Shown here one piece after another: positions 16,931 through 35,412 of a stretch of 64,000 nucleotides of DNA. Origin of the DNA: Parasphingopyxis sp. GTDB lineage: Bacteria; Pseudomonadota; Alphaproteobacteria; Sphingomonadales; Sphingomonadaceae. The notes under the pieces were generated by a model. It was given only the letters and a program-made list of their open reading frames with translations, had not been told where the DNA came from and searched no databases. The position numbers and the translations under genes are program-made. The DNA lies in NCBI RefSeq assembly GCF_028279465.1, contig NZ_JANQNS010000003.1:165386-229385 (forward strand), given 5' to 3'. The stretch's first letter is position 1; each line of letters starts with the position of its first letter.

Positions 16931-17637
16931 CAGCCGGCCTCCCCGTCAGCGAGGCTGACCTCGAAGTCGACGCGCCGGTTCTCCGGATCGGCCGGGTTGC
17001 CGCCGAGCGGTTCGCCCGATCCCCGGCCCGCCGTTGTCAGCATCTCCGCGGGCAAACCGCGCTCGACCAGCGCGTCGCGCACCGTCGTCGCGCGGAAGGC
17101 GGACATCTCGTTATTGACGTTTGCTCGCCCGCTGCTGTTCGCGTGGCCGGTAATCGCGATGCGGATGCCCTCGCAGCCGTCTGCCGCTTCGGCGATCCGG
17201 TCGAGCAAACGATGCGCGGCAGGATTGAGATAGGGCGATCCGCTGCGGAACTGAATCCGTTCGCCGCCGATCGCGGTTTCGACCGTTTCGCGGCAATCTT
17301 GCGCCGCGCTATTCTCGATCGCCGCAGCCTGTTCGATCTCGGCCGGATCGGCTTCGGGCCATACGACATCGGAGACGCCCGATAGCGCCATCACCGCATC
17401 GCGCAATTCGCCACGTTCGGAATTGCCAATTTCGCCGTCAAGTTCGATCACTCGCCGCACCGGATCGGACTGGACAGCAATGTCGACATTTGCGGCACCG
17501 TGGGATGCCAGCGTTTCGCTGGCGCGCTGCTCCAGATCCTCGGCGATGGCCGCGGCTTGCCCGAATGGCTGTAGCCACAGCCATGTCACCACGATCGTTG
17601 CCAACAGCCCGATCAGCAATTTTGCCTGCGCCGGCAT
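16930..17637 (-). CDS. BON-like/OmpA-family envelope protein
   Basis: 235 residues. An N-terminal hydrophobic anchor (LLIGLLATIVVTWLWLQPF) is followed by a BON-like segment (VDIAVQSDPVRRVIELDGEI through ALSGVSDVVW) and a C-terminal OmpA domain (IQFRSGSPYLNPAAHRLLDR, ITGHANSSGRANVNNEMSAF, RRVDFEV). The RA-x-x-V-x-x-x-L-x-x-x-G pattern that contacts peptidoglycan is present as RATTVRDALVERG. The combination recalls mycobacterial ArfA. GGGGAG lies six bases before the ATG. It heads the operon with the 32-residue peptide and HhH protein; a cell-wall-linked membrane complex is the likeliest setting. Confidence 0.8.
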   Translation of the reverse strand: MPAQAKLLIGLLATIVVTWLWLQPFGQAAAIAEDLEQRASETLASHGAANVDIAVQSDPVRRVIELDGEIGNSERGELRDAVMALSGVSDVVWPEADPAEIEQAAAIENSAAQDCRETVETAIGGERIQFRSGSPYLNPAAHRLLDRIAEAADGCEGIRIAITGHANSSGRANVNNEMSAFRATTVRDALVERGLPAEMLTTAGRGSGEPLGGNPADPENRRVDFEVSLADGEAG

Positions 17638-17700
17638 ATAATGCTCCCCAACCCCCTTTATTGCGGAATTGTGTCGCCCAACGCAGGTTTTGGCAAATCG

Positions 17701-18972
17701 TTAACCACGTTCGAGTTCGCGCCAGCCGATATCGCTGCGATAGAAGCCGTCGGCAAAGTCGATCGCGTCGATTCCGGCATAGGCTGTGTCTTTGGCGTCT
17801 CGCAGCGTATCGCCGAGAGCTGTTACATTCAGCACGCGTCCGCCGCTGGCGACGAGCTGGCCGTCTTCATCGGACGTTCCTGCATGGAATATCTTCACAC
17901 CATCGGCCTCGGCGGCTTCGATCCCGGAAATCGGGCATCCCTTTTCCGGCGTGCCCGGATAGCCTTTGGCCGCCATGACGACGGTCATCGCGCTCTGCTT
18001 GCCGAGATCGGGCGGTGCGATCTCGCTCAAACGGCCCTCGGCGGTCGCCACCATCAGCGCCAGCAGATCGTCTTCGAGCCGCATCATGAGCACCTGGCAT
18101 TCCGGGTCGCCGAACCGGACATTATATTCGATCAGCTGCGGCCCGGTTTCCGTGAGCATCAGCCCGGCGAACAGCACGCCACTATAGGGCGTGCCGCGCT
18201 TGGCGAGCGTCTCGACGGTCGGCTTCACGATCTCGTCCATCACGCGCCCTGTCAGTGTCTCGTCGAGAACCGGGGCGGGGCTGTATGCGCCCATGCCGCC
18301 GGTATTGAGTCCCGTATCGCCCTCGCCGACACGCTTGTGATCCTGCGCCGAACCGAGGGGAAGTACGGTTTCGCCATCGATGAAGGCAAAGAAGCTCGCC
18401 TCCTCGCCTTCGAGAAACTCCTCGATCACGATTTCGGCGCCGGCCTTGCCGAAATCGCCGTCGAACATACCCTCGATTGCTGCTTCGGTGTCTTCAGCCG
18501 TTTCCGCGATGATCACGCCTTTGCCGGCGGCCAGTCCGTCCGCCTTGATAACGACCGGCAGCCCGAATTCCTTGAGCGCCGATAATGCGGCTTCAGCCGA
18601 GCTGAAACGCGCATAGCGGGCTGTCGGGATGTTTGCCTCGGCGCACAGGTCTTTCGTAAAGCCTTTCGATCCTTCGAGCCGTGCGGCCTCCTTGTCCGGG
18701 CCGAATACGGCGAAACCCATTGTCCGCAGATTATCCGCAAGGCCGTCGACCAGCGGTGCTTCGGGTCCGATCACGACGAGTTCGATCGATTTTTTCAGGC
18801 AGAAATCGATGGTTCCGCGATGGTCGCCATCCTTGATCTCGACGAGTTCCGCATGCTCGGCTATCCCCGGATTGCCGGGCGAGGCATATAATTTGGTCAG
18901 GTCTGGCGATTGTGCCAGCTTCCAGGCCAGCGCATGCTCGCGGCCACCCGACCCCAGCAACAGGACATTCAT
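17701..18972 (-). CDS. purD: Phosphoribosylamine-glycine ligase
   Basis: A 423-residue ATP-grasp enzyme forming glycinamide ribonucleotide, the second step of purine synthesis. Signatures are [45 protein letters not shown] and [10 protein letters not shown]. The frame is open upstream to 19149, but [10 protein letters not shown] is the universal start. The ATG (18972-18970) overlaps the xseA ATG (18971-18973) in CATG, and its SD (GAGGAAG) lies inside the xseA coding region, so its promoter must also lie within xseA. Confidence 0.96.
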
Positions 18973-20377
18973 GCAGTCTTCCTCTTCAGAACATGGCCGT
19001 AACGAACCCGCCGCTGCGCTCCTAGCCGAGAGCGCTGAAGGCGACAATGCGCAGCCGCTATCGGTTTCGGAAATATCGCAGGCACTTAAGCGCGCGGTGG
19101 AACAGCGCTTCGGCCATGTCCGTATCCGGGGCGAGATTTCCGGGTTCAAGCGGGCGGCCTCGGGCCATTGTTATCTCGGCCTCAAGGACGACAAGGCGGT
19201 GATCGACGGGGTGATCTGGAAAGGCCAGGCCGCCCGCCTCGCTTTTGCGCCGGAAGACGGCATCGAAGTCGTCGCGAGCGGCAAGCTGACCACCTATCCG
19301 GGCCGGTCCAAATATCAGATCGTTATCGAAAGTCTGGAAGTCGCGGGCGAAGGCGCGCTGATGCAGCTGCTCGAGCAACGCCGCAAGGCGCTGGCGGCGG
19401 AGGGGCTGTTCGCCGAAGAGCGCAAGCGGCATTTGCCCTTTCTGCCCCGCACCATCGGTGTGGTGACATCGCCGACCGGCGCGGTCATCCGCGATATCCT
19501 GCATCGCCTTGCGGATCGTATGCCGAGCCATGTCGTCCTCTGGCCGGTCATCGTCCAGGGCGAAGGCGCGGCGGAGCAGATCGCGCGGGCCGTGCGCGGA
19601 TTCGATTCGATGGATGCGGACGGGCCCGTTTCGCGGCCCGATCTCATCATTGTTGCGCGCGGTGGCGGATCGATCGAAGACCTCTGGGCCTTTAACGAGG
19701 AAATCGTCGTTCGGGCCATAGCCGATTGCAAAATTCCGATCATTTCGGCGGTCGGGCATGAAACGGACACAACGCTGGCTGATTTCGCGGCCGATCGCCG
19801 TGCGCCGACGCCGACGGCCGCGGCCGAACTGGCCGTGCCGGTGCGGTCGGAACTGCTCGCGATGCTCTCGCAAAGCGGGACCCGGGCAATGGGTGCGATA
19901 CGGCGGCATGCCGGTCGGTTGGCCGAGCGCCTCAGCGCCATTGCGCGGCTCCTGCCACGGCGCGAAACGCTGTTCACGGCACAGGCCCAGCGGGTCGACG
20001 AACTGGTGGAACGGCTGCCGCGCGTGCTGGAGGGACGGCTCGATCTTGCCCGGATTGCGCTTGCCCGGCGCACTGACCGGCTGAGACCGGGACTTGTCGA
20101 GGCGCGCCTGGCCGATAGACTGACTCGGCTGGATGGCCTTTCCCGCCTGCTGGAACAGCTCCATCCCGAACGGCCGCTCGAACGTGGCTATGCGCGGGTG
20201 ACGGATCGCGATGGCGGTACGCTGGTCAGCGCGGCGGCGGTTCGGAAGGCCGGTGCCTTCACGGTCCGATTGGCCGACGGGACTGTCGATGCCCGGGTTG
20301 AGGATGGCCGCAAGCGCGCCTATTCTAAGCGCCGCAAGCCCATGGCCGAATCCGGCCAGGGCGGATTGTTCGATTAG
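18971..20377 (+). CDS. xseA: Exodeoxyribonuclease VII large subunit
   Basis: A 468-residue nuclease subunit that degrades single-stranded DNA with XseB. The N-terminal OB fold shows [39 protein letters not shown] and [10 protein letters not shown]; the core has [34 protein letters not shown] and [20 protein letters not shown]. No in-frame alternative start exists near ATG 18971, which has AGGA six bases upstream inside purD. Divergent from and overlapping purD by two bases; DUF2093 and M23 peptidase genes follow. Confidence 0.95.
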
Positions 20378-20389
20378 AGGCGCAGGGAA

Positions 20390-20593
20390 ATGTTGACGAT
20401 GAGTGGCGGGCGGACCGCCAAGCTCCATTATATGGCGAACAATTACCGGATGATCGCGCCCGGCGACCATGTGCTGTGTGGGGTAACCGGCGAAGCGATT
20501 CATCTCGACGATCTGCGGTATTGGAGCGTCGAGAAGCAGGAAGCCTATGCCAGCGCCGAGATTGCCGTGCGTGCGGCAGAGGCCGCGCGATGA
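20390..20593 (+). CDS. DUF2093 protein
   Basis: A 67-residue protein with the DUF2093 pattern AKLHYMANNYRMIAPGDHV, LCGVTGEAIHLDDLRYWSV and EKQEAYASAEIA. The family is widespread in alphaproteobacteria and of unknown function; a conserved cysteine is in LCGVTG. An ATG at 20399 is an alternative start. It lies 12 bases after xseA, and its stop overlaps the M23 gene by four bases, so the three form one operon. Confidence 0.85.
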   Translation: MLTMSGGRTAKLHYMANNYRMIAPGDHVLCGVTGEAIHLDDLRYWSVEKQEAYASAEIAVRAAEAAR

Positions 20594-21513
20594 TCAAGGG
20601 GTTGGTTGGGGCGGCCCTGCTGTTTTTAGTCGCCTGTGTTTGCGCGATTGCCTATGTTCCGCCGGGCTACGCAAATGGTGCGGATAGCGCCCAGCAAGGC
20701 GTTGCTTTAGCCCAGACCGATGACCGATCCGCCCGCACAGGCTTTAGCCTGCACGGCGTTTTCCGGCAGGGCGGACTCGTGCACGGTCAGGCGCCGGCGG
20801 GCACGCGGCGGCTGCAGCTGGGCGATACTGAGATTCCGATGACCGAAACAGGGCGCTTCCTGATCGGTTTCGGGCGCGATCACGGACCTTCGGCGCGGCT
20901 TGTCGCATTTCTGGAGAACGGTGAAACGGTGAGCGAAAACCTCACCATCGCTGCGACCAATTGGCCAGTCCAGCATGTCAATGTCGCGCGACGGGGTGGC
21001 TACTCTTCGGCTGCATTTCAGCGCCGGCGCGCGCCCGAACTCGCGCAGATCGTGGCGGCGCGCGAAATTCAGTCCGATACCAATGGCTGGCAACAGGAAT
21101 TTCTCTGGCCGGTGACCGGACGAATCAGTGGCGTGTTCGGGTCGCAGCGCATCTATCGCGGCGAGCCGGGTTCCTATCATTCCGGTGTCGATATCGCCCG
21201 TCCTACTGGGACTCGGGTTGTGTCCCCGGCCGACGGTGTTGTCGTGCTGGCGACGGAGACGCCGTTCACGCTTGAAGGCCATCTGCTCATCATCGATCAT
21301 GGAATGGGGCTCAACAGCGCATTTCTGCACCTGTCGCGTATCGACGTTGAAGAGGGAGACCGGGTCGAGCGTGGCCAGAATATCGCGGCAATCGGGTCGA
21401 CCGGCCGGTCGACCGGCCCGCATCTCCATTGGGGGATGAAATGGGGCACCGAGCGAATCGATCCGCAATTCCTTGTCGGGCCGATGCCGCGTTCCGGTGC
21501 CGGAAACCGCTAA
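20590..21513 (+). CDS. M23-family metallopeptidase (LytM domain), exported
   Basis: 307 residues: an N-terminal signal/anchor (VGAALLFLVACVCAIAYV), a beta-rich N-domain, then a LytM/M23 domain. Zinc ligands are visible in YHSGVDIA (His and Asp) and HLHWGMKW (catalytic and metal His). Such enzymes cut peptide cross-links of peptidoglycan or activate amidases when degenerate; here the motif is complete, so activity is expected. ATG 20590 overlaps the DUF2093 stop in ATGA, though the open frame extends upstream. Confidence 0.92.
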   Translation: MIKGLVGAALLFLVACVCAIAYVPPGYANGADSAQQGVALAQTDDRSARTGFSLHGVFRQGGLVHGQAPAGTRRLQLGDTEIPMTETGRFLIGFGRDHGPSARLVAFLENGETVSENLTIAATNWPVQHVNVARRGGYSSAAFQRRRAPELAQIVAAREIQSDTNGWQQEFLWPVTGRISGVFGSQRIYRGEPGSYHSGVDIARPTGTRVVSPADGVVVLATETPFTLEGHLLIIDHGMGLNSAFLHLSRIDVEEGDRVERGQNIAAIGSTGRSTGPHLHWGMKWGTERIDPQFLVGPMPRSGAGNR

Positions 21514-21625
21514 AAGCCTGATTAATTTCCAAAGATCGGCGTAACCAAGCGCTTTGGCCAATGGATTGTGCGGGCCGCCCCAACAAACTGTTGCATTTTG
21601 GCGACATATCCTCGCGAACCCGCCT

Positions 21626-21672
21626 AGGAGGCCGAACCGATGCTTTACAGGCCGCCAATCTCCATGCAGTGA
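21626..21672 (+). promoter_or_regulatory. Candidate leader ORF with strong SD upstream of the TonB receptor
   Basis: AGGAGG (21626-21631), an 8-base spacer and ATG 21640 open a 10-residue ORF, MLYRPPISMQ, ending TGA at 21670-21672. The site is a better match to the anti-SD than that of the receptor gene 114 bases further on. The Arg-Pro-Pro triplet could slow ribosomes. Between the ORF and the receptor, TGGGT (21687-21691) and ACCCA can pair. The rest of the 273-base gap (21514-21786) holds no other gene I can support. Confidence 0.4.
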
Positions 21673-21786
21673 CGCTGCAAGCCTATGGGTGAGCTGCGCG
21701 GGTCGCATGCTTGGACCAACCCAGCAAAGGCTAGAATTTAGGCCGCGATTTTGCGGTATCTAACTCCAGAATAAGGGGCTGGAAAC

Positions 21787-24702
21787 GTGACCAAGACTTC
21801 CAAATTTACTCAACTGAAGGCGGGTGCCGCACCTGTCGTGATCGGCGTCGCGATGATGTCGACTCCTGCGTTCGCGCAGGATAGCGATGAGCTCGCGTCC
21901 GCAAGCACCTCGGGCCAGCCGGCCATCGTTGTCACGGGTTCGCGCATTACGAACCCGAACCTCGAACAGTCGAGCCCGATCCAGGTTGTAAGCCAGGACG
22001 AAATCGATTTTCGCCAGGCTACCAACGCTGAGGAGCTGATTGGCGATCTTCCCGGTATTTCGCCCGGCATCAACAACAGTGTTAACAACGGCAGCGGCGG
22101 TTTCGCCTCGTTGAACCTGCGTAACCTGGGCACGAACCGTAACCTCGTGCTGCTTGACGGTACGCGTCTCGTGCCTTCGAGCATCGCGTCGGTGACCGAC
22201 CTTAACATCATTCCGGTTGCGCTCGTCGAGCGGGTCGAAATCGTTACAGGCGGCGCTTCGTCGGTTTATGGTGCCGACGCTATCGCGGGTGTTGCAAACT
22301 TCGTGACGAAGCGCGATTTCGAGGGCCTCGAAGCTGCTACCACGTTCGGTATCACCGAGCGCGGCGACGGTGAACGTTTCCGTGCCGACCTCACGCTGGG
22401 CGCCAACTTCGACGACGGTCGCGGTAACGCGGTTCTCAGCGTTGGTTATCAGGAAGTCGATGACGTTCTGCAGGCCAACCGTCAGATTTCGCAGCAGGCA
22501 TTGTTCGCGAATGTTAACAGCGTCATCGGTTCGGGTACGTCGGTGCCTACTACGATCAACAGCACGTTGCAGAACGCGACCGACGGCCAGACTTTTGTGC
22601 CGGTGTTCAACACGTTCAACTTCGCGCCGTTCAACTTCTTCCAGACGCCGCTTGAACGCTACAATATCTTCGGTTCGGCTCGTTACGAAGTGACTCCGGA
22701 AATCGAAGTCTATTCACGCGGCATGTTCACAAAGAGCGTTGTTGACTTGCAGCTGGCTCCGTCCGGTCTGTTCGGCGACCCGTTCCGCTTCCCGCTGAAC
22801 AATCCATTCCTAACGGATACCCAGCTTCAGCAAATTTGCGCAACGACGTTCTTGCCCGGCGCGATAGACCCGATCGATCCGGCGACCTGTACAGCTGCTG
22901 GTGCGGCGACTGGTCCGGAAGATCCCAACTATCTTGCGCCTGACGTGATTATCAATCGCCGTCTGGTCGAGCAGGGCCCCCGTCAGACCAACATCACGAC
23001 GAACCAGTTCCAGGTATGGGCTGGTGTTCGCGGTGATCTGAGCCCGACGCTCAGCTACGATGTGTATGCCACATATGGTGAATCGGATCGTACGACGACG
23101 CGGCGCGGCTGGGGTCTCAAGTCCCGTATTGAGCAAGCGCTCGATGCGACGAGCCCGACCACCTGTGCGGATCCGAGCAATGGCTGTTTCCCGATCAACC
23201 TGTTCGGCGGCGGCGTTGGCACGAACATCGACCCGCGTGCCGTGGCCTTCTTTAACCAGCCGTCGAGCTTCACGGTTAACGTGACGCAAGCGCAGGTGAA
23301 CGCTTCGCTTGCGGGCACCTTCGGAGAGACCGGTTTCTTCACCGAAACGCCGGTCGGTTTCGCTGTCGGTGTTGAATATCGTGACCTCACAGTGGCGCAG
23401 AATCCGGGCGTCGCGGCCGGCACCCAAGACGAGGTGCTTGGTACCGGTGCGCCGGCAGCTGCATTCAGCGGCGGGTTCGACGTTATCGAAGGCTTTGCCG
23501 AGTTGATCATTCCGATCATCGAAGACGTTCCGGGCTTTTACAATCTGACGATAGAGGGCGGTATCCGTGTTTCGGATTACTCCAACACGGGTACGAGCGT
23601 TACGTGGAAAGCGGGCGGCACCTGGGAGCCTTTCCAGGGCTTCGCGATCCGTGGCATCTATCAGCGGTCGGTACGTTCGCCGAACATCGCCGAACTGTTC
23701 CAGCCCGCGGTTGTTACGCTAACGCCTCTGGCAGTTGATCCGTGCGCGGGTGCGAACCCGACCATGGATGCAACGCTGAGATCGATCTGTATTGCACAGG
23801 GTGCGCCCGCACCGTTCGTCGATGGCGGCCTTATTCCTCAACCTTCCGCTGGTCAGATCAACTCGACCCAGGCCGGTAACGCCAACTTGGACGTTGAGAC
23901 AGCCGACAGTCTCACAATCGGTCTTGTCATAACACCGCCTCAGATTCCTGGACTTGCGGTGACGATTGACTACTACAATATCGAGGTCACGGACGCGATC
24001 ACGCAGCCGACGATTGACGATATTCTGGATCCGTGCTTCGGCCCGGACCGGGCAAATCCGACACCGAATCCGGCTGCGCCGGAATGTGCTGCGGTTGGTC
24101 GTAATCCGATCAACGGTTCACTGAACGGTGGCGGCGAGACCGCTGGTGCGATCTTCCTGCTGGACAACTTGGGTACGCTTGAGACGTCAGGCATCGATTT
24201 GCGTGTTGTCTACAACTTGCCGGTCAGCTTTGGTTCGATCAACTGGGACTTCACTGGTACCTGGGTTGACGAGCAGTTGCAGCAGCCTACGCCAACATCG
24301 GTGAATCGCGATTGTGTCGGCTTGTTCAGCGGAAACTGTTTCCCGATCACGCCGGAATTCGCGTTCAACTTCCGCACCACGGTGAGCATCGACGATCTCG
24401 TTGACATCTCGCTGCTGTGGCGGTGGATCGACAGCATCGCGCTCGAAGGCGCTGCGACGAACGCCACGTTCAGCGAAGAGTTCAAATACTTCGATGATGC
24501 GAGTTATTTCGACTTGTCCTTCCGGTCGAATGTGAGCGAGAATTTCGACGTGACGTTCGCGATCCAGAACCTGCTTGATCGTGACGCGCCGATCTCGAGT
24601 TCGTTCATCGGACCGAGCACGTTCAACTCGGGTAACACATGGCCGACAACGTACGACACGCTTGGCCGTCGTTATTCGGTTACCGGACGCCTTCGCTTCT
24701 AG
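21787..24702 (+). CDS. TonB-dependent receptor with five cysteine pairs
   Basis: 971 residues. Signal peptide (VVIGVAMMSTPAFA, cleavage before QDSDE), plug domain from IVVTGSRITNPNLEQS through LRNLGTNRNLVLLDGTRLVP and ASSVYGADAIAGVANFVTKR, then a 22-strand-type barrel ending RRYSVTGRLRF, with the terminal aromatic expected for outer-membrane insertion. Exactly ten cysteines occur, in five pairs spaced 6-16 residues, apparently in extracellular loops. Codon use shifts to GGT, GTT and CGT relative to neighbours, suggesting high expression. The start is GTG with AAGGGG eight bases upstream. Substrate unknown; the downstream oxygenase and sulfotransferase-like genes are the only context. Confidence 0.93.
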   Translation: MTKTSKFTQLKAGAAPVVIGVAMMSTPAFAQDSDELASASTSGQPAIVVTGSRITNPNLEQSSPIQVVSQDEIDFRQATNAEELIGDLPGISPGINNSVNNGSGGFASLNLRNLGTNRNLVLLDGTRLVPSSIASVTDLNIIPVALVERVEIVTGGASSVYGADAIAGVANFVTKRDFEGLEAATTFGITERGDGERFRADLTLGANFDDGRGNAVLSVGYQEVDDVLQANRQISQQALFANVNSVIGSGTSVPTTINSTLQNATDGQTFVPVFNTFNFAPFNFFQTPLERYNIFGSARYEVTPEIEVYSRGMFTKSVVDLQLAPSGLFGDPFRFPLNNPFLTDTQLQQICATTFLPGAIDPIDPATCTAAGAATGPEDPNYLAPDVIINRRLVEQGPRQTNITTNQFQVWAGVRGDLSPTLSYDVYATYGESDRTTTRRGWGLKSRIEQALDATSPTTCADPSNGCFPINLFGGGVGTNIDPRAVAFFNQPSSFTVNVTQAQVNASLAGTFGETGFFTETPVGFAVGVEYRDLTVAQNPGVAAGTQDEVLGTGAPAAAFSGGFDVIEGFAELIIPIIEDVPGFYNLTIEGGIRVSDYSNTGTSVTWKAGGTWEPFQGFAIRGIYQRSVRSPNIAELFQPAVVTLTPLAVDPCAGANPTMDATLRSICIAQGAPAPFVDGGLIPQPSAGQINSTQAGNANLDVETADSLTIGLVITPPQIPGLAVTIDYYNIEVTDAITQPTIDDILDPCFGPDRANPTPNPAAPECAAVGRNPINGSLNGGGETAGAIFLLDNLGTLETSGIDLRVVYNLPVSFGSINWDFTGTWVDEQLQQPTPTSVNRDCVGLFSGNCFPITPEFAFNFRTTVSIDDLVDISLLWRWIDSIALEGAATNATFSEEFKYFDDASYFDLSFRSNVSENFDVTFAIQNLLDRDAPISSSFIGPSTFNSGNTWPTTYDTLGRRYSVTGRLRF

Positions 24703-24725
24703 TAGCGAGCTCCGGAACAAGAAAT

Positions 24726-24755
24726 GGGCGGTGAGGGAAACCTTGCCGCCCTTTT
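24726..24755 (+). terminator. Strong terminator after the TonB receptor
   Basis: An 11-bp stem (24726-24736 with 24741-24751, two G-U pairs) closed by a GAAA tetraloop, followed by TTTT (24752-24755) and CTTT. One of the clearest terminators in the window; it separates the receptor from the next gene. Confidence 0.88.
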
Positions 24756-24763
24756 CTTTGCAC

Positions 24764-24793
24764 TTGCCGGATACGCGCATGAGCCGGTATCAA
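24764..24793 (+). promoter_or_regulatory. Possible promoter for the TPR/2OG oxygenase gene
   Basis: TTGCCG (24764-24769), an 18-base spacer and TATCAA (24788-24793), placed after the receptor terminator and about 40 bases before the ATG. Only a moderate consensus match, but a promoter is needed here because the terminator isolates the gene. Confidence 0.35.
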
Positions 24794-24832
24794 AACCTTT
24801 TTGGCTAAAGCTATCGAGGTATTGCGCACGAA

Positions 24833-26341
24833 ATGGCCGAACGGAGCCGCGGGCAACAGTCAGACGGGCCGGACCCGAAGGCCATAATCGCTGAAGCCAT
24901 GCGCAAACGCGATGCCGGTACGCCGAGGGCGGCCATTCCGGCGATAAGGGCAGCGCTCGAAACGCATCCCGACCATCTGCGTTTGTGGCACGTCCTGGGT
25001 CTGATGTATCGCGCCGACGAGGACTCGGCGAATGCGATCGAGGCTTTTACGCGCGCGGTCGCGATTGCGCCCCGCGATCCGAAAGTTACCCACGCGCTAG
25101 CGCGGGTGACGATGGAAGCAGGCCGACCGGCAACGGACCTGTTCGACAAGGCTAGGCAGTATTCGCCTGCCGATGGGTCTGTTATAATGGGGCGCGCCGC
25201 TGCCCAGTCGGCCGTCGGCGACATAGAAGCGGCGATTGCCGATCTGGACGATCTGCTTGGGAGCAATCCGCTCTGGATCGAAGGGCAGGAACTGCTCGCC
25301 AATCTGCGCTGGATGAACGGCGAGCGCGACCATTTCACGGCGGGCTTTGAACGCGCTCTCGCAACACATCCCAGCAATCAAGGCCTATGGTTCAAGCTGA
25401 TCAATGCGTTGTGCCAGGTTGGTCGCTTCAACGCTGCCGATACGGTCGTCGAACGCGCTCGGAAGTATGTCACCGATGTTCGTGTGCTCGATATTAGTGA
25501 GGCGATTTGCGCGTCCGAGGTTGGCGATCCTGACCGTGCTGATCGGCTGTTCGATCGTGTTGTGCCCTACACGGAAATGCCGCTGGCAGTGCGGTACATG
25601 CGGCACATGCTAAGAACCGGAAGGCCGGAACAGGCCGCAAAATGCGGCGAGGAGCGGATGCAGGATGCCGATGCGAACGAGATGTGGCCATATCTCGGCC
25701 TCGCCTGGCGCATGACGGACGACCCCCGTTGGGACTGGCTCGAACGCGACGAGCGATTGATCAAGACCTACGACATCGGAGAACGGGTCGATATGACCGC
25801 CTTTGCCGAACATCTGCGGACGCTTCATGTGCTCAAGGCCGACATGGCTGGCCAATCGGTGCGGGGTGGCACGCAAACCGACGGGCCGCTATTCGCCCGC
25901 GCCGATCCCGAAATTCGGGAGCTGCGCGCGGCCATCGTCGATACCGTGACCGCGCATATGCATACCCTTGCGCCTATCGATTCCGATCATCCGGTCCTGC
26001 GACACAGCCCAGGCCCTTTTCAGTTCGGAGGCTCCTGGTCCGTGCGACTGGCGGGGGCCGGCCGGCATACAAACCATATCCATCCCCGGGGCTGGTACAG
26101 CTCCGCCCTCTATGTAAGCCTCCCGTTGCAGGAGGATTTCGGCGAACCGCCGGCCGGCTGGTTGGCGTTCGGGAAACCGCCCGAGGAGCTCGGCCTAGAC
26201 CTCGAACCGTTCGAGATAGTGGAGCCGAAAGTCGGTACCCTCGCGCTCTTCCCGTCGATCATGTGGCACGGCACGATCCCGTTCGATGCCGGCGAGCGGC
26301 TGACCGTTGCCTTCGACGTGCAGGCGCCGATCAGCCCATGA
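24833..26341 (+). CDS. TPR protein with C-terminal 2OG-Fe(II) oxygenase domain (PF13759-like)
   Basis: 502 residues, no signal peptide. Residues about 15-300 are tetratricopeptide-like helical hairpins (HPDHLRLWHVLGLMYRADED, NAIEAFTRAVAIAPRDPKV). The last 150 residues match the putative 2OG-Fe(II) oxygenase family: HTNHIHPRGWYSSALYVSLP with metal-binding His, LALFPSIMWHGTIPF with the distal His, and ERLTVAFDVQ with the Arg for 2-oxoglutarate. The TPR part is probably the substrate-recruiting surface and hydroxylation of a protein or peptide the likely reaction; both are inference. The stop overlaps the convergent sulfotransferase-like gene by 11 bases. Confidence 0.85.
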   Translation: MAERSRGQQSDGPDPKAIIAEAMRKRDAGTPRAAIPAIRAALETHPDHLRLWHVLGLMYRADEDSANAIEAFTRAVAIAPRDPKVTHALARVTMEAGRPATDLFDKARQYSPADGSVIMGRAAAQSAVGDIEAAIADLDDLLGSNPLWIEGQELLANLRWMNGERDHFTAGFERALATHPSNQGLWFKLINALCQVGRFNAADTVVERARKYVTDVRVLDISEAICASEVGDPDRADRLFDRVVPYTEMPLAVRYMRHMLRTGRPEQAAKCGEERMQDADANEMWPYLGLAWRMTDDPRWDWLERDERLIKTYDIGERVDMTAFAEHLRTLHVLKADMAGQSVRGGTQTDGPLFARADPEIRELRAAIVDTVTAHMHTLAPIDSDHPVLRHSPGPFQFGGSWSVRLAGAGRHTNHIHPRGWYSSALYVSLPLQEDFGEPPAGWLAFGKPPEELGLDLEPFEIVEPKVGTLALFPSIMWHGTIPFDAGERLTVAFDVQAPISP

Positions 26342-27419
26342 TACTGCCGCTGGGCCGGATCGGGATGTTCAGGCCTTCGGCAACCGTCTCGACCCAGACC
26401 GCGACCTTTTCAATCTCGTCGGCATGCGCGGATTCGCCGGCAGCCTGTTCCTCGCGCCGTTTTGAAGCATCGAAATCGTCGCCGAACTTGGAATGGCGCC
26501 GAAATACGGCGCTATCGGCGATCGCCTGCGCGCGCGCCTCGTCCATGTCGAGCGCGAAGAGCCGCCCGATTCGCGCAAGGCTCTCGGCGCCGCGGGCGAG
26601 GAAGGTCTCGCTATCGAGAGAGGCAATGCGATCGCCGCCATGTTCGGTGAGCAAATCCTCATAAATCCGGTTTTGCGCCAGCCAGGCGAGTCCGGCGATC
26701 TGTAGATCGGTCTGCCCGAAAAGTTGCTCGTCATCGAAGCCGAGATCAACATGCGCGGTTTTCTGGGTCGTGATGAAAAGCTCGCGGCCCCATAGGCGTC
26801 CGGTGATGCCTTTGCGCGCGATTGAGTTCAGGAATAGCCGAAGCGGCGCGTATAGAAATAACGCCCGGCTATTGTTGCGCACCGCTAGCAGAGTGTCGGC
26901 CAGCCCATTGACGGTGCAAGACGGCTTGGCGATTACTGCTTCGCCGGCTTCGAATGGTCGCGCGAGCAAATTCAGCGTCTGCTCGAGAACTGCGATTGCG
27001 CGATCCTTGTCCAGACTGCGCTGCCGATAACCGCTCATATCGCGCAAAACCATGGGCTCGCTGAGACCGGTGCTCATGTCTGTTTGATCCAGAGCCCGCG
27101 CAAGCAGAGTCGAGCAACAAAACCCCGAATGGAAGATGTAATGCAGCGGAGAGCCTGCATATTGTTTCAACGTGACATCTTTTCGAGCGACGACGACCGG
27201 CGTCTGATCGCCCGGCAGATTTTCTTCGGACAGGAATGTCGTCTTGCGCCGCGTATCCCGATCGAGCCGGATGAAATGGAATGCATCTGCACTTTCATCG
27301 TAACGGTGCACCAGTACTGCGGGATCATCCAGCGATAGAGAGAAGGTTTTGACCATAAACAGTGAGGGCTCCGCAATATTGAGTCTGGTGTCGACGTTTA
27401 GCGGCCGGTTGGCAATCAC
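26331..27419 (-). CDS. Sulfotransferase-like protein with FCCSTLL motif
   Basis: Up to 362 residues, cytosolic. The segment YIFHSGFCCSTLLARALD occupies the place of the 5'-phosphosulfate loop of PAPS sulfotransferases, but the usual Lys/Arg is replaced and two adjacent cysteines appear. A later AVRNNSRALFLYAPLRLFLN could be the 3'-phosphate-binding strand. Sulfotransferase activity is therefore uncertain; another nucleotide-dependent transfer is possible. The start is GTG 27419 or ATG 27356; neither has a strong SD. It is transcribed toward the TPR/2OG gene with an 11-bp tail overlap and diverges from the small secreted protein. Confidence 0.65.
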   Translation of the reverse strand: MIANRPLNVDTRLNIAEPSLFMVKTFSLSLDDPAVLVHRYDESADAFHFIRLDRDTRRKTTFLSEENLPGDQTPVVVARKDVTLKQYAGSPLHYIFHSGFCCSTLLARALDQTDMSTGLSEPMVLRDMSGYRQRSLDKDRAIAVLEQTLNLLARPFEAGEAVIAKPSCTVNGLADTLLAVRNNSRALFLYAPLRLFLNSIARKGITGRLWGRELFITTQKTAHVDLGFDDEQLFGQTDLQIAGLAWLAQNRIYEDLLTEHGGDRIASLDSETFLARGAESLARIGRLFALDMDEARAQAIADSAVFRRHSKFGDDFDASKRREEQAAGESAHADEIEKVAVWVETVAEGLNIPIRPSGSIMG

Positions 27420-27527
27420 GCCATGGACCCACCCTTGTCCATATCCAGTTTAGAGAGTAGACACTCGATTAGATACACTGGGAGGGTGTTTATCGTTATT
27501 TTCGAATAATAGTTGCGGAGTTTTGCA

Positions 27528-27803
27528 ATGAAGATAGTCGTGCCCGTTGTGGCCGCCACAATAATCGCGTTCAGTACGCCAGCTATGGCCATGATCCAGG
27601 AAGAAGCGCCTGGCGTGGAGGAAGCCGAAGAGGATCCGGATCAGCGCGTACGTTGCCAAACGCGCCGGGTGACCGGTTCGAACGCTCGGCGCATACGCAC
27701 ATGTCTGACCATTGCAGAATGGCGCGAACTCGCGCAATCCGGCAATCGCGACGCTCGCCGGATACTGGACGATACAACCCGGGACTCGATGCAACGCAAC
27801 TAG
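27528..27803 (+). CDS. Small secreted two-cysteine protein
   Basis: 91 residues with a signal peptide (VVPVVAATIIAFSTPAMA). The mature protein is acidic at first (EEAPGVEEAEEDPDQ) then basic, with the core RVRCQTRRVTGSNARRIRTC and LTIAEWRELAQSG. The two cysteines, 15 residues apart, could form a disulfide. I recall the Cys-VTG-Cys-AEW pattern in short alphaproteobacterial exported proteins of unknown function. GGAG is eight bases before ATG 27528. It diverges from the sulfotransferase-like gene, sharing a 108-base regulatory gap. Confidence 0.75.
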   Translation: MKIVVPVVAATIIAFSTPAMAMIQEEAPGVEEAEEDPDQRVRCQTRRVTGSNARRIRTCLTIAEWRELAQSGNRDARRILDDTTRDSMQRN

Positions 27804-27897
27804 CGTTCATGAGCCGGTTTGCTATCGATTGCCCGTAAGTTGGCGTGGCCAATCAATTGGAAAGACAGCCTCTTTGCGGGCGCTATAGCCCGGTCGG

Positions 27898-28455
27898 TTA
27901 TCGAATGCGCGATACCGAGATAAATCCAGTACGGCCCTCGACGCGCAGCCGATAGCCGCCGATCCCACCGCGCGAGATGGTTGCGCTTGATCCGACACGA
28001 ATCCGGCCGCGCAAGCTGCTATTGCTGCCCTCTCGCCACATTTGGCCATTCTCTAACAGGAATACACGCCGGCGCGTGCTGTCCGTGAAAGTCTCGACGA
28101 TATTCGATGTGACTTCCGTCGGTTCGGGTGGCGCTAAATCCGCGACGTCTTCCGCGTCGCCACCGCTTTCGCGCGCGCGCTCTACTTCGCGGTCGTAGCG
28201 CTCTTCGATCTGCGTGGCTGACAGGCCGAAATCCTCTACCGTGCGCCGTCGCCGCCGTTCCTGGCGCGCCTCGAGCGCGGCATCGGCGCCGGCAAGGGCG
28301 GCATCGAAACAGGCAAGCCGCGCTGGTCCTTCGGTGATCGTTCCGCATTCGCGAAACGGCTCGAGCGCTTCTTCGCCGTCATCGGCATGGGCCGGCGAAG
28401 CAAGAAAAAGGGGAGCGGCGGTAAGGCAGACAAGGGAAGATCGGAAGATACGCAT
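27898..28455 (-). CDS. Exported protein of unknown function
   Basis: 185 residues with a signal peptide (RSSLVCLTAAPLFLASPAHA). The mature N-terminus has ECGTITEGPARLACFDAAL, the two-cysteine C-x(n)-RLACFD pattern found in many periplasmic proteins, then an Arg/Glu-rich coiled-coil-prone stretch (ALEARQERRRRRTVEDF), and a C-terminal beta-rich part (RRVFLLENGQMWREG, GYRLRVEGRTGFISVSRIR) that may form a small SH3-like domain. No enzyme motif seen. Monocistronic on the minus strand, 87 bases after the methyltransferase gene. Confidence 0.7.
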   Translation of the reverse strand: MRIFRSSLVCLTAAPLFLASPAHADDGEEALEPFRECGTITEGPARLACFDAALAGADAALEARQERRRRRTVEDFGLSATQIEERYDREVERARESGGDAEDVADLAPPEPTEVTSNIVETFTDSTRRRVFLLENGQMWREGSNSSLRGRIRVGSSATISRGGIGGYRLRVEGRTGFISVSRIR

Positions 28456-28542
28456 TATCCAGACTCCGATATGGACGGCCGGGCGGCCGGAGAATCGGCT
28501 CCTTCATTACCGATAATCGCGCCCATGGCTAGCCTGAGGGCG

Positions 28543-29412
28543 TTACGCCTTGCGCCGGGCCGAGATTGACCAGGCGATCGGTCGAGCAAGCCCCTGAATT
28601 TGGATCGGTCGCGCAGCATCAGAGTCAAAATGCGCGGCGAGGCTTGCCGTGAATTCCGCCACACCGCTACTGCCGAGCGCGACATCCAGCAATGCGCTCA
28701 ATACGGCGATCTCCTGTTCCAGGCTGGCCTCGATCCGGTCGAGTTCTTTGTCAGCCCCCGCACCGCCGAAGCGAACCGCATGGTCGATCGCCGCCGCGAT
28801 TTCCCGCACGACAGGTTGATCGGGATGGCTGCGCGCGATCAGCGAAAAGGTCTGGCTTAACATTGCGGTATCGCTGCCGGGCTGGCTGGTCGCTCTGCGC
28901 GCCATGTCGCGAATGGAAGAGCGCGCGATAGCGTTTAGCGCCGCATGCCTGTTGCGATTCTGTTCTACGATTGGACTGTCCGCGTGATGGACGATGAACT
29001 GCACCATAGCGTCGGCTTTCGCGACGCGCGCGATTTCGGGGGCAGCCGCGGCAACATCGGCATATTCGATGCCGAACTGGCTGGTCAGGCCATCGAAGCG
29101 TTCGTCATCGAATGGCAGGTTGGCGATGTCCGTCGAACCGACGAGTTTGGTCTTCTTAGATCGGCTTTTCGGCAGCTCGGCATAGTCGACGCCCGTCAGA
29201 TCCAGATCGCCATTGCCGCGCAGCAGCGCGCGCATCACCGCGCCCGTACCGCAGGCGAGGTCGAGCAGCTTGGCACCACGATCGAATCGCCGGGCAAACT
29301 GCGTCCATAACTCGGTCAGCTGCGCGTCGACGGCGGGCGGCGCACCCGGCAGGCAGCCCCCCGCTTCGCCCATCTGCTTCCAATAGGCGCTCCACGCCTG
29401 TGCTTTGCTCAT
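28543..29412 (-). CDS. Class I SAM-dependent methyltransferase
   Basis: 289 residues. The SAM-binding loop is LLDLACGTGAVMRALL near residue 48, followed by the acidic end of strand 2 (LTGVDYAEL) and the post-II DIANLPFDDERFDGLTSQF. The C-terminal half is helical with no recognised acceptor signature, so the substrate is unknown. The ATG lies 10 bases after the clpB stop, so it is probably read from the clpB transcript and may be induced by heat with it. Confidence 0.82.
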   Translation of the reverse strand: MSKAQAWSAYWKQMGEAGGCLPGAPPAVDAQLTELWTQFARRFDRGAKLLDLACGTGAVMRALLRGNGDLDLTGVDYAELPKSRSKKTKLVGSTDIANLPFDDERFDGLTSQFGIEYADVAAAAPEIARVAKADAMVQFIVHHADSPIVEQNRNRHAALNAIARSSIRDMARRATSQPGSDTAMLSQTFSLIARSHPDQPVVREIAAAIDHAVRFGGAGADKELDRIEASLEQEIAVLSALLDVALGSSGVAEFTASLAAHFDSDAARPIQIQGLARPIAWSISARRKA

Positions 29413-29422
29413 GCCGCTCGGC

Positions 29423-32002
<2,580 letters not shown>

Positions 32003-32032
32003 CTGTCCATCCCTGTTCCTGTCTCCGGCCCG

Positions 32033-32060
32033 ATATAGTGTTGCAAAAATACAACACAAG
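32033..32060 (-). promoter_or_regulatory. Candidate sigma-32 promoter of clpB with inverted repeat
   Basis: On the minus strand CTTGTG (32060-32055), a 14-base spacer and CACTATAT (32040-32033) partly match the alphaproteobacterial sigma-32 pattern CTTGAA/CCCCATNT. The inverted repeat GTGTTG / CAACAC (32038-32043, 32052-32057) overlaps the spacer. Distance to the clpB ATG fits a short leader. Confidence 0.4.
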
Positions 32061-32178
32061 GCGTTGCGCACTTTATCTTTGTCGACAGATTTAGGCGTTC
32101 GTCGAGCGACCGCAACCGCTGCTTGCACGGCGCTTTCCCGCCGCTATGGTCTGTCGCGATTTTCCGGGAGAAGATGCG

Positions 32179-35058
32179 ATGCATTTCCTGAAACTGTGCC
32201 TGCTTGCGCCGCTGGCGCTGCTCGCCACGCCAGCGCTTGCGCTGGATGATCACGGCGAAGCGCCTGCCGGTCCGCAGCCCAATGTCTCGGCCGCCGATCT
32301 CGTCGGCGAGGTATCGATCCCTTACGAACGCTTCACGCTCGATAACGGCCTGCGCGTTATCGTCCATGAAGACCGCAAGGCGCCGGTCGTCGCCGTTTCG
32401 GTCTGGTATCATGTCGGATCGCGGCACGAACCGGAAGGCCAGACGGGCTTTGCCCATCTTTTCGAGCATCTGATGTTCAACGGGTCTGAGAACGCGCCGG
32501 GCATCTATTTCGAACCGCTGCGCGAAATGGGTGCAACCGATCTCAATGGTACGACCTGGTACGATCGGACCAACTATTTCCAGACCGTCCCGACCCAGGG
32601 CCTCGAGCTGGCCTTGTATCTGGAGTCGGATCGCATGGGTTACTTGCTGGGAGCGATCGACCAGCAAAAGCTCGATGACGAGCGCGGCGTCGTCCAGAAT
32701 GAAAAACGGCAAGGCGACAACCAACCCTATGGGCTCGTAAGTTACGCGCAGATCGACGCACTGTTCGGCCCCGACCACCCCTATGGCCATTCGACGATCG
32801 GCTCGATGGCCGATATCGACGCGGCGAGCCTCGACGATGTACGCGCCTGGTTTCGGGCGCATTACGGCCCGAACAATGCGGTGCTCGTCCTTGCCGGCGA
32901 CATCGACGCGGCCACCGCGCGGCCGCTCGTCGAGCGCTATTTCGGCGATATTCCGCGCGGGCCCGATACCGAACAGATTGATCCCGGCATCCCGACGCTC
33001 GATGCGCGCCGCGAAATCGTCATGCAGGACGATGTTGCGACGACGCGACTCTATCGCAGCTGGGCCGTGCCCGGACTCAACGATCCGGTGACGGCCGATC
33101 TCGATGTTGGCGCGGCGGTGTTCGGCGGGCTCTCGAGCTCGCGGCTCGACAACAGCCTGGTCCGCGAAGAGCAGGTCGCGGTGCGCGTATCTGCGGGCGT
33201 TCTCGACTTCGAATATGTCGGCATTTTCGAGATTCAAGTCGATGTCGCGCCCACGGCCGATGCGGATGCGGTGTCCGCGCGGCTTGATGCGTTGATCGCC
33301 GATTATATTGCCAACGGCCCCACGCAGGACGAGGTCGATCGCGTGGCGATGCGCCAGGTCGCAGCGCGTCTAGCCGGTCTCGAACGGGTTGGCGGTTTCA
33401 GCGGCAAGGCAGCCGTGCTGGCGAGCGGCGAACTCTATTCCGGCGATCCGGCTTTTTACCGCACGCAGCTCGCCCGGCTCGGCGCGGCGACGCCGGAGTC
33501 CGTTCGCGCCGCCATGCAGCAATGGCTGACCCGGCCGGTCCTCGCGACCCGCGTCGATCCCGGCGAACGCGGCGATTATGAAGAAAGCCTGTCGATTATA
33601 GGCGCGCAAACCGGCGGGCTGGAAAGCCCCGCGCACTATCTGCAGCCCGGCGAGGAACCGGATGTTTCTGAACAAGCCGTAGAGGAGCCAACAGGTACGC
33701 GCAGCGTCCCGCGTCCGGAAGTCGGCGCGATCGGCGATCTCGATTTCCCCGATGTCGAGCGCGGAACACTCTCTAACGGCGTCGAGATTCGCTTCGTCCG
33801 CCGTGCGGCGGTGCCGACGATCCAGATACTGCTGAGCTTCGATGCCGGAAACGCCGCCGACCGTGCAGACCAGCTCGGAACGCAGGCGCTGATGCTGTCG
33901 CTGATGCCCGAAGGCACGACCAGCCTCAATTCGACGCAGATCGCGGAAGCAGAGGAGCGACTCGGCGCATCGATCACGCCGAGCAAGAGCCGCGACCGCA
34001 CGGGGTTTGGATTGTTCGCCCTGGCGGCCAATTTCGGTCCGGCGCTCGATCTGCTCGCGGATGTCGTCCGCAACCCGGCATTCGAACCGGCCGAAATCGA
34101 GCGATTGCGCGCAACACAACTCACCCAGATCGTGGCGGAAGGCACATCGCCGCCGAGCCTTGCAAGCCGGACGCTCTGGCCAGCTTTGTTCGGGGATGCG
34201 CACCCCTATGGCCGCCCGGGTAGCGGGCTCGGCACGGCGGAGTCCGTTGCGGCGATCACGCGCGAAGACCTTTTCGCCTTTCACCGCCAATGGATCCGCC
34301 CCGACAGGCTCAGCATAATCGTGGTTGGCGATTCGACGCTGGAAGATGTGATTGCCGCGCTTGAACCGCGCTTCGGCGACTGGGAGCCGAGCGGCGAAGC
34401 GGGCACGAAGTCGATGGATGCCGCTATTCCGGCTGCGAATCCGCGGATCATTCTGGTCGACCGTCCGAATTCCCTGCAATCCTATATCTATGGCGGGCAG
34501 GTGCTCGGGCTCGAAGGCACCGACGAACTGTTGCCGCTCTTGACCGCCAATGACGCGCTGGGCGGGAGCTTCCTCTCCCGGCTCAATCTGGATCTGCGCG
34601 AGGCGCGGGGTTGGACCTATGGCGTGAGCGGCGCGATCAATCGCTTCGCCGGGCCTGTCAGCTATACCGTCCGCGCGCCGGTGCAGGCGGACCGGACGGG
34701 CGACTCCATCGCCGCGCTGCAGGAACAGATTACAACCTTCCTGACGAGCGAAGGCATCCGGCAGGACGAATTCGACCGCGCGATCAATGGCAGCATTCGC
34801 AGCCTCCCGGGCAGCTTCGAAACGTCCGGCGGGATCATCGTCGGGATGACGCGCAACATGCTCTATGAGCGGTCCGACGATTATTATGACGGGCTTGCCG
34901 CCATGTATCGGTCGTTCGACCGGGCGGAGCTCGATGCAGCGGCGCGTGCGGCCATCGACCCGGACGCATTTACGTGGATCGTCGTCGGCGATGCATCTCT
35001 CGTCCGGGAACAGCTTGACGCGCTGGGCCTGCCTGTGGAAACAGTCGGGACGGATTAA
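32179..35058 (+). CDS. Exported tandem M16 metallopeptidase (pitrilysin family)
   Basis: 959 residues with a signal peptide (LCLLAPLALLATPALA). The first M16 half has the inverted zinc motif HLFEH (HxxEH) and the downstream Glu ligand in VVQNEKRQGDNQPYG, so it should be catalytic. The second half (from about residue 530) keeps the fold but lacks HxxEH (LGTQALMLSLM), and contributes the Arg/Tyr-containing R-x-x-x-x-Y-like surface (NLDLREARGWTYGVSG). This active/inactive fusion is normal for periplasmic M16 peptidases that clear peptides. ATG 32179 follows GGGAGA. Followed 29 bases on by a small beta-rich protein. Confidence 0.93.
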   Translation: MHFLKLCLLAPLALLATPALALDDHGEAPAGPQPNVSAADLVGEVSIPYERFTLDNGLRVIVHEDRKAPVVAVSVWYHVGSRHEPEGQTGFAHLFEHLMFNGSENAPGIYFEPLREMGATDLNGTTWYDRTNYFQTVPTQGLELALYLESDRMGYLLGAIDQQKLDDERGVVQNEKRQGDNQPYGLVSYAQIDALFGPDHPYGHSTIGSMADIDAASLDDVRAWFRAHYGPNNAVLVLAGDIDAATARPLVERYFGDIPRGPDTEQIDPGIPTLDARREIVMQDDVATTRLYRSWAVPGLNDPVTADLDVGAAVFGGLSSSRLDNSLVREEQVAVRVSAGVLDFEYVGIFEIQVDVAPTADADAVSARLDALIADYIANGPTQDEVDRVAMRQVAARLAGLERVGGFSGKAAVLASGELYSGDPAFYRTQLARLGAATPESVRAAMQQWLTRPVLATRVDPGERGDYEESLSIIGAQTGGLESPAHYLQPGEEPDVSEQAVEEPTGTRSVPRPEVGAIGDLDFPDVERGTLSNGVEIRFVRRAAVPTIQILLSFDAGNAADRADQLGTQALMLSLMPEGTTSLNSTQIAEAEERLGASITPSKSRDRTGFGLFALAANFGPALDLLADVVRNPAFEPAEIERLRATQLTQIVAEGTSPPSLASRTLWPALFGDAHPYGRPGSGLGTAESVAAITREDLFAFHRQWIRPDRLSIIVVGDSTLEDVIAALEPRFGDWEPSGEAGTKSMDAAIPAANPRIILVDRPNSLQSYIYGGQVLGLEGTDELLPLLTANDALGGSFLSRLNLDLREARGWTYGVSGAINRFAGPVSYTVRAPVQADRTGDSIAALQEQITTFLTSEGIRQDEFDRAINGSIRSLPGSFETSGGIIVGMTRNMLYERSDDYYDGLAAMYRSFDRAELDAAARAAIDPDAFTWIVVGDASLVREQLDALGLPVETVGTD

Positions 35059-35087
35059 CTGACATAACTGTAAGGAAGGATTCGCAT

Positions 35088-35390
35088 ATGACAGACGTAT
35101 CAGGAACCTGGGATTCGGTCGTGAACTCCCCGATGGGCGAGCAGAAATCGACGATGACGCTGAGCCAGGATGGCGACACCGTCACGGGCACCAATGCCGG
35201 CGCGACCGGATCGGCCGAAGTCAAGGACGGCAAAATCGACGGCAACACACTGACCTGGAAGATGGACATCACGGTTCCGATGCCGATGACGCTGGAAGGC
35301 ACGGCGACTGTCGAAGGCGACAAGATGGCTGGCAACATCAAGGCCGGCGCGTTTGGCGAAATGCCGTTCTCGGCAACCAAGACCGGCTAA
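35088..35390 (+). CDS. Small beta-rich protein of unknown function
   Basis: 100 residues, no signal peptide. Alternating strands and turns: VSGTWDSVVNSPMGEQKSTM, LSQDGDTVTGTNAG, VKDGKIDGNTLTWKMD, TATVEGDKMAGNIKAG. This looks like a single small antiparallel beta barrel or sandwich that could bind a lipid or other ligand. I recall similar proteins beside metal-dependent amidohydrolases or peptidases, but no function is established. AAGGAAGGA precedes the ATG. Probably co-transcribed with the M16 peptidase 29 bases upstream. Confidence 0.7.
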   Translation: MTDVSGTWDSVVNSPMGEQKSTMTLSQDGDTVTGTNAGATGSAEVKDGKIDGNTLTWKMDITVPMPMTLEGTATVEGDKMAGNIKAGAFGEMPFSATKTG

Positions 35391-35412
35391 ATCGTTTCGG
35401 CATGCGCGGCGA

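Follow-up and report, generated by a model that had tools for sequence, protein, structure and literature searches.

What brings a TonB-dependent receptor (TBDR), an iron oxygenase, a transferase-like protein and a small exported protein together in one bacterial locus, and on what would such enzymes act? The question is raised by a 64,000-nucleotide stretch of the genome of Parasphingopyxis sp. (Sphingomonadales; contig NZ_JANQNS010000003.1, positions 165,386 to 229,385), referred to here as the window. A preliminary description, made from the letters of the window alone, had listed a TBDR with ten cysteines, a tetratricopeptide-repeat (TPR) protein with a 2-oxoglutarate (2OG)-Fe(II) oxygenase domain (TPR-2OG), a convergent sulfotransferase-like gene (encoding the FCCSTLL protein, STL) and a divergently read, exported small protein with two cysteines, and had suggested that the oxygenase and the transferase modify either the receptor or a peptide ligand before export. 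All of these are present, in the order and on the strands described, and the assignments of the TonB receptor and 2OG oxygenase families are upheld by matches to PF07715, PF00593 and PF13759 over their cut-offs. Comparison with related genomes shows that the core unit is STL plus a 2OG oxygenase, the TBDR being one frequent setting. The linkage of these genes, the exchange of one oxygenase family for another, and the occurrence in one clade of the small and enzyme genes apart from the receptor are seen directly. We propose, tentatively and at somewhat less than an even chance, that the two enzymes form a hydroxylation/transfer unit acting on an exported protein, likeliest the small protein (hereafter also the miniprotein) in Sphingomonadales.

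Linkage of STL and 2OG oxygenase genes

An earlier contig scan with the single STL protein gave no match, and a profile alignment of STL (A1) was then scanned over species genomes. This recovered 454 STL relatives, of which the best 80, those most similar to the window-type STL, were analysed as named loci with flanks of up to 10 kb; the 57 flanked on each side by 5 kb or more are the basis of the neighbourhood counts. Neighbours were labelled by profiles seeded from neighbour genes, with the oxygenase and sulfotransferase seeds checked in Pfam; for the oxygenases, the seeds came from neighbours that had been noticed beforehand, a bias that the counts carry. The preliminary description had staked its interpretation beforehand on a neighbourhood conserved in related genomes, and such a neighbourhood was found: within 5 kb of STL lie a 2OG oxygenase in 52 of the 57 loci, a TBDR in 51 and a small gene in 46, together with a family of 185-aa exported proteins in 32 and a TPR-PF13469 sulfotransferase (TPR-sulfotransferase) in 29. 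The oxygenases of the 52 loci are TPR-fused PF05118 Asp/Asn hydroxylases (TPR-AspH, 47 loci) or of the TauD (9), PF13759 (4) and PF13661 (1) types, some loci having two. The 57 loci represent 28 genera or records, and at least one locus has a TBDR in 28/28 of these, an oxygenase in 26/28 and a small gene in 21/28. One of the named loci, L135 of the laboratory strain Sphingobium sp. SYK-6, has two small genes along with TPR-AspH, STL and TBDR genes.

A second sample comprised 60 relatives chosen regardless of neighbourhood, in which 30 STL genes were counted (33 matches minus the window copy, one on a 3-kb contig of G031 and one at G007:C7). The two samples overlap, since some of the 80 loci lie in the same genomes as the 60 relatives (e.g., L091, L092 and L094). 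A 2OG oxygenase was found within 5 kb of 24/30 STL genes, and of the same 24/30 when scored by domains; in 19 of these 24 the gene ends of STL and the oxygenase are at most 25 bp apart. Five oxygenase families partner STL in the 60 relatives, namely PF13759, PF05118, TauD, PF13661 and YbiX/PiuC. The six STL genes without an oxygenase label are those of L034, L035, L057 (where the contig ends 2.9 kb away) and L061 and two in L064. Because an oxygenase accompanies 24/30 STL genes and a TBDR within 5 kb only 11/30, we regard STL plus oxygenase as the general unit. The suggested link between oxygenase and transferase was thus borne out and widened, extending to five 2OG families and to sites away from TBDRs.

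In a quick STL tree (111 rows, several long branches), the type of the nearest oxygenase changes at least six times, or 10 times with 'none' counted as a state. The PF13759 partners form one clade and the YbiX/PiuC partners another, while the PF13661 and TauD partners are scattered. In G063, from another family of the class, STL, TPR-AspH, TPR-sulfotransferase, TBDR, TPR-2OG and a PiuC type all occur together (L235). Scanned over 289 genomes of the class, A1 matched in 21, with four strong matches in three genomes, two of them in the window's own genome. Among 24 weak A1 loci with short flanks (L195-L212, L214-L219), an oxygenase label fell on another frame in five, four of these being weak (20-25 bits); for such distant relatives the pairing is not shown.

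Elsewhere in the window's genome (G000:C20:112769-113806 and 163324-163602; L066, L069) lie a second STL gene, directly followed by a YbiX/PiuC-type oxygenase gene, and, about 50 kb away, a second PF13759-TPR gene. G002, G005 and G009 likewise show a distance close to 50 kb.

The STL protein and the oxygenase families

STL of the window has no Pfam match up to an E value of 10 and no NCBIfam match up to 0.01; among the STL proteins tested, no model of either database reaches its cut-off, one paralogue scoring 20.5 bits against PF13469 (cut-off 27). Residues F42, H77, S83, T84, E101, P102, K145 and K291 (numbered on 26331-27359) are invariant in 31 STL members. An AlphaFold2 (AF2) model of STL has a predicted local distance difference test score (pLDDT) of 93.5, and all 16 matches that Foldseek returned for it from the PDB with E up to 0.001 are sulfotransferases, the first being human TPST2 (E 5e-5, template modelling (TM) score 0.43 by query length, tied with two others). 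The predicted structure indicates that STL is a sulfotransferase fold, and since the TM scores are only 0.39-0.46 by query length, a distant relative within it. Consistent with this, hhalign aligned STL with the profiles of local TPR-sulfotransferases over 183 columns (probability 89, P 2e-6), a weak profile match. STL therefore resembles TPST1/2 and the bacterial PF13469 sulfotransferases in predicted fold, in this match and in an invariant Glu (E101 of A1), which aligns with the invariant Glu of the TPR-sulfotransferases; Lys145 aligns with their invariant Asp. It differs from them at their invariant Arg of the 5'-phosphosulfate-binding (PSB) loop, which falls in a gap in STL, and at the invariant Arg of the later RRDPRD stretch, which is Ala (an alignment-dependent assignment). 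True sulfotransferases use a PSB-loop Arg/Lys and a 3'-phosphate Arg for the donor 3'-phosphoadenosine 5'-phosphosulfate (PAPS), and we take the two Arg sites to be these. Sulfation by STL is doubtful, as its aligned sequence lacks the Arg typical of PAPS sulfotransferases. Compared with PAPS-dependent sulfotransferases, STL agrees in its predicted fold; no family model reaches its cut-off, and the donor Arg sites are unmatched in the alignment.

The PF13759 domain of TPR-2OG scores 66.4 bits against a cut-off of 27, and its residues H412, H415, H417, H479 and R489 are kept in 35 of 36 homologues; the H415/H417 pair, H479 as the distal His and R489 presumably serve as the metal and 2OG ligands. 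PF05118 is present in 32 of the 60 relatives, both at STL and away from it. TPR arrays occur on three of the enzyme types.

Loci with PF13759-TPR genes were picked by hand. Among those of this genome and its relatives, a TBDR lies within 5 kb in 13/21, against about 0.15 per gene expected by chance; this figure (0.148) takes the window's genome to have 34 TBDR genes and treats the loci as independent, which they are not. In a class sample (open frames of at least 480 aa, 18/20 scored, and with L235 included knowingly, STL being nearby), the count was 3/18. The families accordingly co-occur in part: STL keeps company with an oxygenase (24/30), but PF13759-TPR genes are often elsewhere (13/21 and 3/18) and the TBDR is separable, as six genomes described below show.

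In other families of the order, L246 and L247 (G045:C1:1-19900) stack two to three receptors with TPR-AspH and TPR-2OG genes and no STL label; L247, which lies beside ClpB, also has a TPR-sulfotransferase and a PF13661 oxygenase.

Weighing the candidate targets

The 36 members of the small-protein family share invariant C43, G50, C59 and W65. In the AF2 model, two strands (41-48 and 54-61) with TGS at the turn between them are followed by a helix, with pLDDT of at least 90 in 41 of 91 residues; the strand positions would bring the two Cys together. Foldseek of this model against the PDB gave no fold match (best E 1.5). The window's genome has this copy of the family only, and 14/80 loci have two to four. 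Tandem arrays of two to six small-family genes (C...TGS...C.T..W) were also seen at L172:4314-6610, L173:6701-7917, L175:9252-10680 and L177:9427-10182, each immediately 5' of a presumed rpsD gene, with the enzymes absent. Mimicry of the TonB box by the small protein was considered and dropped as a likely coincidence. In 44/44 loci with both motifs, the first small copy and the receptor agree in the class, aliphatic or not, of the residue that follows TGS. However, all non-aliphatic cases belong to a single group, L178 and L179 break the agreement (it holds in L084 and L188), and TGS forms the turn of a predicted hairpin.

Three observations bear on which partner goes with the enzymes. In 31/80 loci the small gene directly follows a TPR-AspH gene in the same direction, after a gap of 36-198 bp. 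In six Sphingomonas genomes of one clade, the TPR-AspH, STL, small and TPR-sulfotransferase genes form one block that lacks a TBDR label within 5 kb; in the same genomes the best-matching TBDR sits at a PurD-XseA-M23-185aa site, where the 185-aa exported family stays with it (L256-L261) and no enzyme or small gene was recognised within about 8 kb. Among the 57 loci, the small gene is missing from 4/5 without an oxygenase versus 7/52 with one (Fisher P 0.004), the oxygenase-less loci not being independent, since three of the four small-less ones fall in one clade. These results collectively favour the small protein as the cognate of the enzymes and make it a more likely target than the receptor.

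Several findings weigh against a modified miniprotein. All six genomes with a separate enzyme block belong to one clade, so that the separation of enzymes and receptor amounts to one event. No small gene lies within 5 kb of STL in 11/57 loci, and one lies within 5 kb of 11/30 STL genes in the 60 relatives (8 by stricter labels). Genes of the small family also occur without the enzymes, in the arrays 5' of the rpsD-like gene and beside a TBDR alone; they share the C, GS, C, T, W pattern, which can thus be conserved in the absence of any modification. Unlike most peptide precursors, the miniprotein has a predicted fold, and the gap and Ala at the donor Arg sites of STL, noted above, count on the same side. 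Furthermore, a top-down survey of the Novosphingobium periplasm (PMC3608174), in the part of its text covered here, reports signal-peptide removal, Met excision, acetylation, glutathionylation, pyroglutamate and disulfides; hydroxylation and sulfation are not among the modifications in that part, and its loci could not be matched to the small family.

The alternative closest to hand is that the enzymes, recruited by the TPRs, modify the unfolded receptor itself before export, so that its extracellular loops are tuned and the small protein is an accessory. The frequency of a TBDR beside STL (51/57), the 13/21 PF13759-TPR loci with a TBDR, where no stretch has an STL label, and L244-L247 of other families of the order, with TBDR, TPR-2OG and TPR-AspH and again no STL label, all fit this proposal, as does the conservation of the ten TBDR Cys, each kept in 56-64 of 67 locus TBDRs. 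The closest solved relatives of the receptor are BtuB chains, with the match confined to the plug part, and IVVTGSRI near its N-terminus is, we assume, the TonB box. We nonetheless consider the receptor an unlikely target, given the enzyme block that lies apart from the best-matching receptor in six genomes, the 11/30 STL genes of the 60 relatives with a TBDR within 5 kb, and the same receptor type at L178 and L179 with no recognised STL or oxygenase nearby.

It is quite unlikely, in our judgement, that STL and the oxygenase act on a small molecule or lipid, whether a ligand taken up by the cell or, as with LpxO and OlsC, an acyl chain. One TPR-AspH partner resembles OlsC and LpxO, far below cut-off, TauD and YbiX/PiuC types are among the partners, and a receptor is often near; however, TPR arrays, which suit polypeptide binding, occur on three enzyme types, 46/57 loci have a gene for an exported miniprotein within 5 kb, and a protein-tyrosine sulfotransferase heads the fold matches of STL. 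Mere hitch-hiking of genes between the housekeeping blocks PurD-XseA-M23 and ClpB-M16, with synteny but no joint function, appears improbable. These flanks do recur across the order, and TBDRs are numerous (35 barrel matches in this genome), but STL also adjoins an oxygenase at other genomic sites and when the oxygenase is of another family, their adjacency is found as well in another family of the class (L235) and in the separate Sphingomonas block, and the chance level for a TBDR within 5 kb is the 0.15 per gene given above. Taken together, the interpretation offered in the preliminary description is supported in its conserved linkage and weakened by the separability of the TBDR and the doubt over sulfation.

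We therefore return to the two-enzyme unit acting on the miniprotein, and outline how it might work. The TPRs of the oxygenase would probably hold a polypeptide, of which the 2OG oxygenase would hydroxylate a side chain in the cytosol. STL would then add a group at the hydroxyl so formed, or act on the hydroxylated protein in another way. After export of the modified product, the two-Cys miniprotein would function in the cell envelope, probably together with the TBDR encoded nearby. We infer the common substrate of both enzymes, its identity, the order of the steps and the transferred group.

Organization of the locus and related systems

Features of the locus (positions in the window)
Feature	Position	Strand	Basis
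TBDR, 971 aa, ten Cys, TonB-box-like IVVTGSRI	21787-24702	+	PF07715 plug and PF00593 barrel over cut-off
Terminator-like stem-loop with T tail, 3' of TBDR gene	24726-24751	+	11-pair stem
TPR-2OG, 502 aa, TPRs and C-terminal 2OG-Fe(II) oxygenase domain PF13759 (residues 401-495)	24833-26341	+	Pfam over cut-off
STL (FCCSTLL protein, predicted sulfotransferase fold), convergent with TPR-2OG gene	26331-27356	-	predicted structure, profile comparison
Small protein, 91 aa, signal-peptide-like start, Cys43 and Cys59, divergent from STL	27528-27803	+	
185-aa exported protein	27898-28455	-	weak VasI-like match below cut-off
S-adenosylmethionine (SAM)-dependent methyltransferase	28543-29412	-	

The 3' ends of the STL and TPR-2OG genes overlap by 11 bp. 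The TBDR and the oxygenase are perhaps not on one transcript, because a terminator-like stem follows the TBDR gene; seven such sites were found in the region versus 6.9 in shuffles, this one having the longest stem. The recurrent gene set runs past the small gene to the 185-aa exported protein and the SAM methyltransferase, homologues of which adjoin the receptor or the oxygenase in other genomes. The order M23-TBDR-TPR2OG-STL-small-185aa-MT-ClpB-M16 (MT, methyltransferase) is kept in the related genomes of L051-L055, with one to three small copies; L055 is without the methyltransferase, and the L051 stretch begins within the TBDR. In five genomes of other genera (L083, L086-L089), methyltransferase homologues lie directly beside the TPR-2OG gene and near receptors. 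The methyltransferase is a possible further modifying enzyme. In line with the preliminary description, no iron or sugar partner of the TBDR is near, as judged from Pfam/NCBIfam matches of only the seven genes at 20593-29412; Rfam gave no match at gathering scores on 17000-36000.

Among known enzymes, the locus domains over cut-off and the conserved His/Arg of the PF13759 set link the oxygenases to PF13759 (2OG-FeII_Oxy_5) and to TPR-fused PF05118 Asp/Asn hydroxylases, and human ASPH has a similar TPR-plus-hydroxylase layout. The TPR fusions described here differ in having STL and an exported miniprotein encoded at the same locus. Literature searches, in the portions of text that they covered, found no substrate for bacterial TPR-PF13759 or TPR-PF05118 fusions. 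Exported systems resembling ribosomally synthesized and post-translationally modified peptides (RiPPs), with tailoring enzymes in the cytosol, include RaxX/RaxST and the signal-peptide-bearing bufferins. As in these, a short exported Cys protein is encoded beside modifying-type enzymes; the enzyme families differ, and the miniprotein is predicted to be folded and has enzyme-free relatives. Of two features by which RiPP loci may be judged, a short precursor gene beside modifying-type enzymes was found (46/57 STL loci; after TPR-AspH in 31/80), and confinement of the precursor family to enzyme loci was not, given the enzyme-free copies near the rpsD-like gene and a TBDR. A module of STL, oxygenase, small protein and TBDR had no account in the texts reached by full-text literature search.

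Paired hydroxylation and group transfer are best known from the eukaryotic secretory pathway. A bolder reading, which we hold to be rather unlikely, is that the locus represents a cytosolic two-step counterpart of secretory-pathway hydroxylation and sulfation, operating before export on TonB-linked envelope proteins in Sphingomonadales, with interchangeable 2OG hydroxylases, many of them TPR-fused, and a new sulfotransferase-fold family with a non-PAPS-like donor site. If modification by the paired enzymes is true, a common and culturable bacterial order would finish exported proteins by paired hydroxylation and group transfer, and a function would be provided for the STL family, the TPR-2OG and TPR-AspH proteins and the exported miniprotein family.

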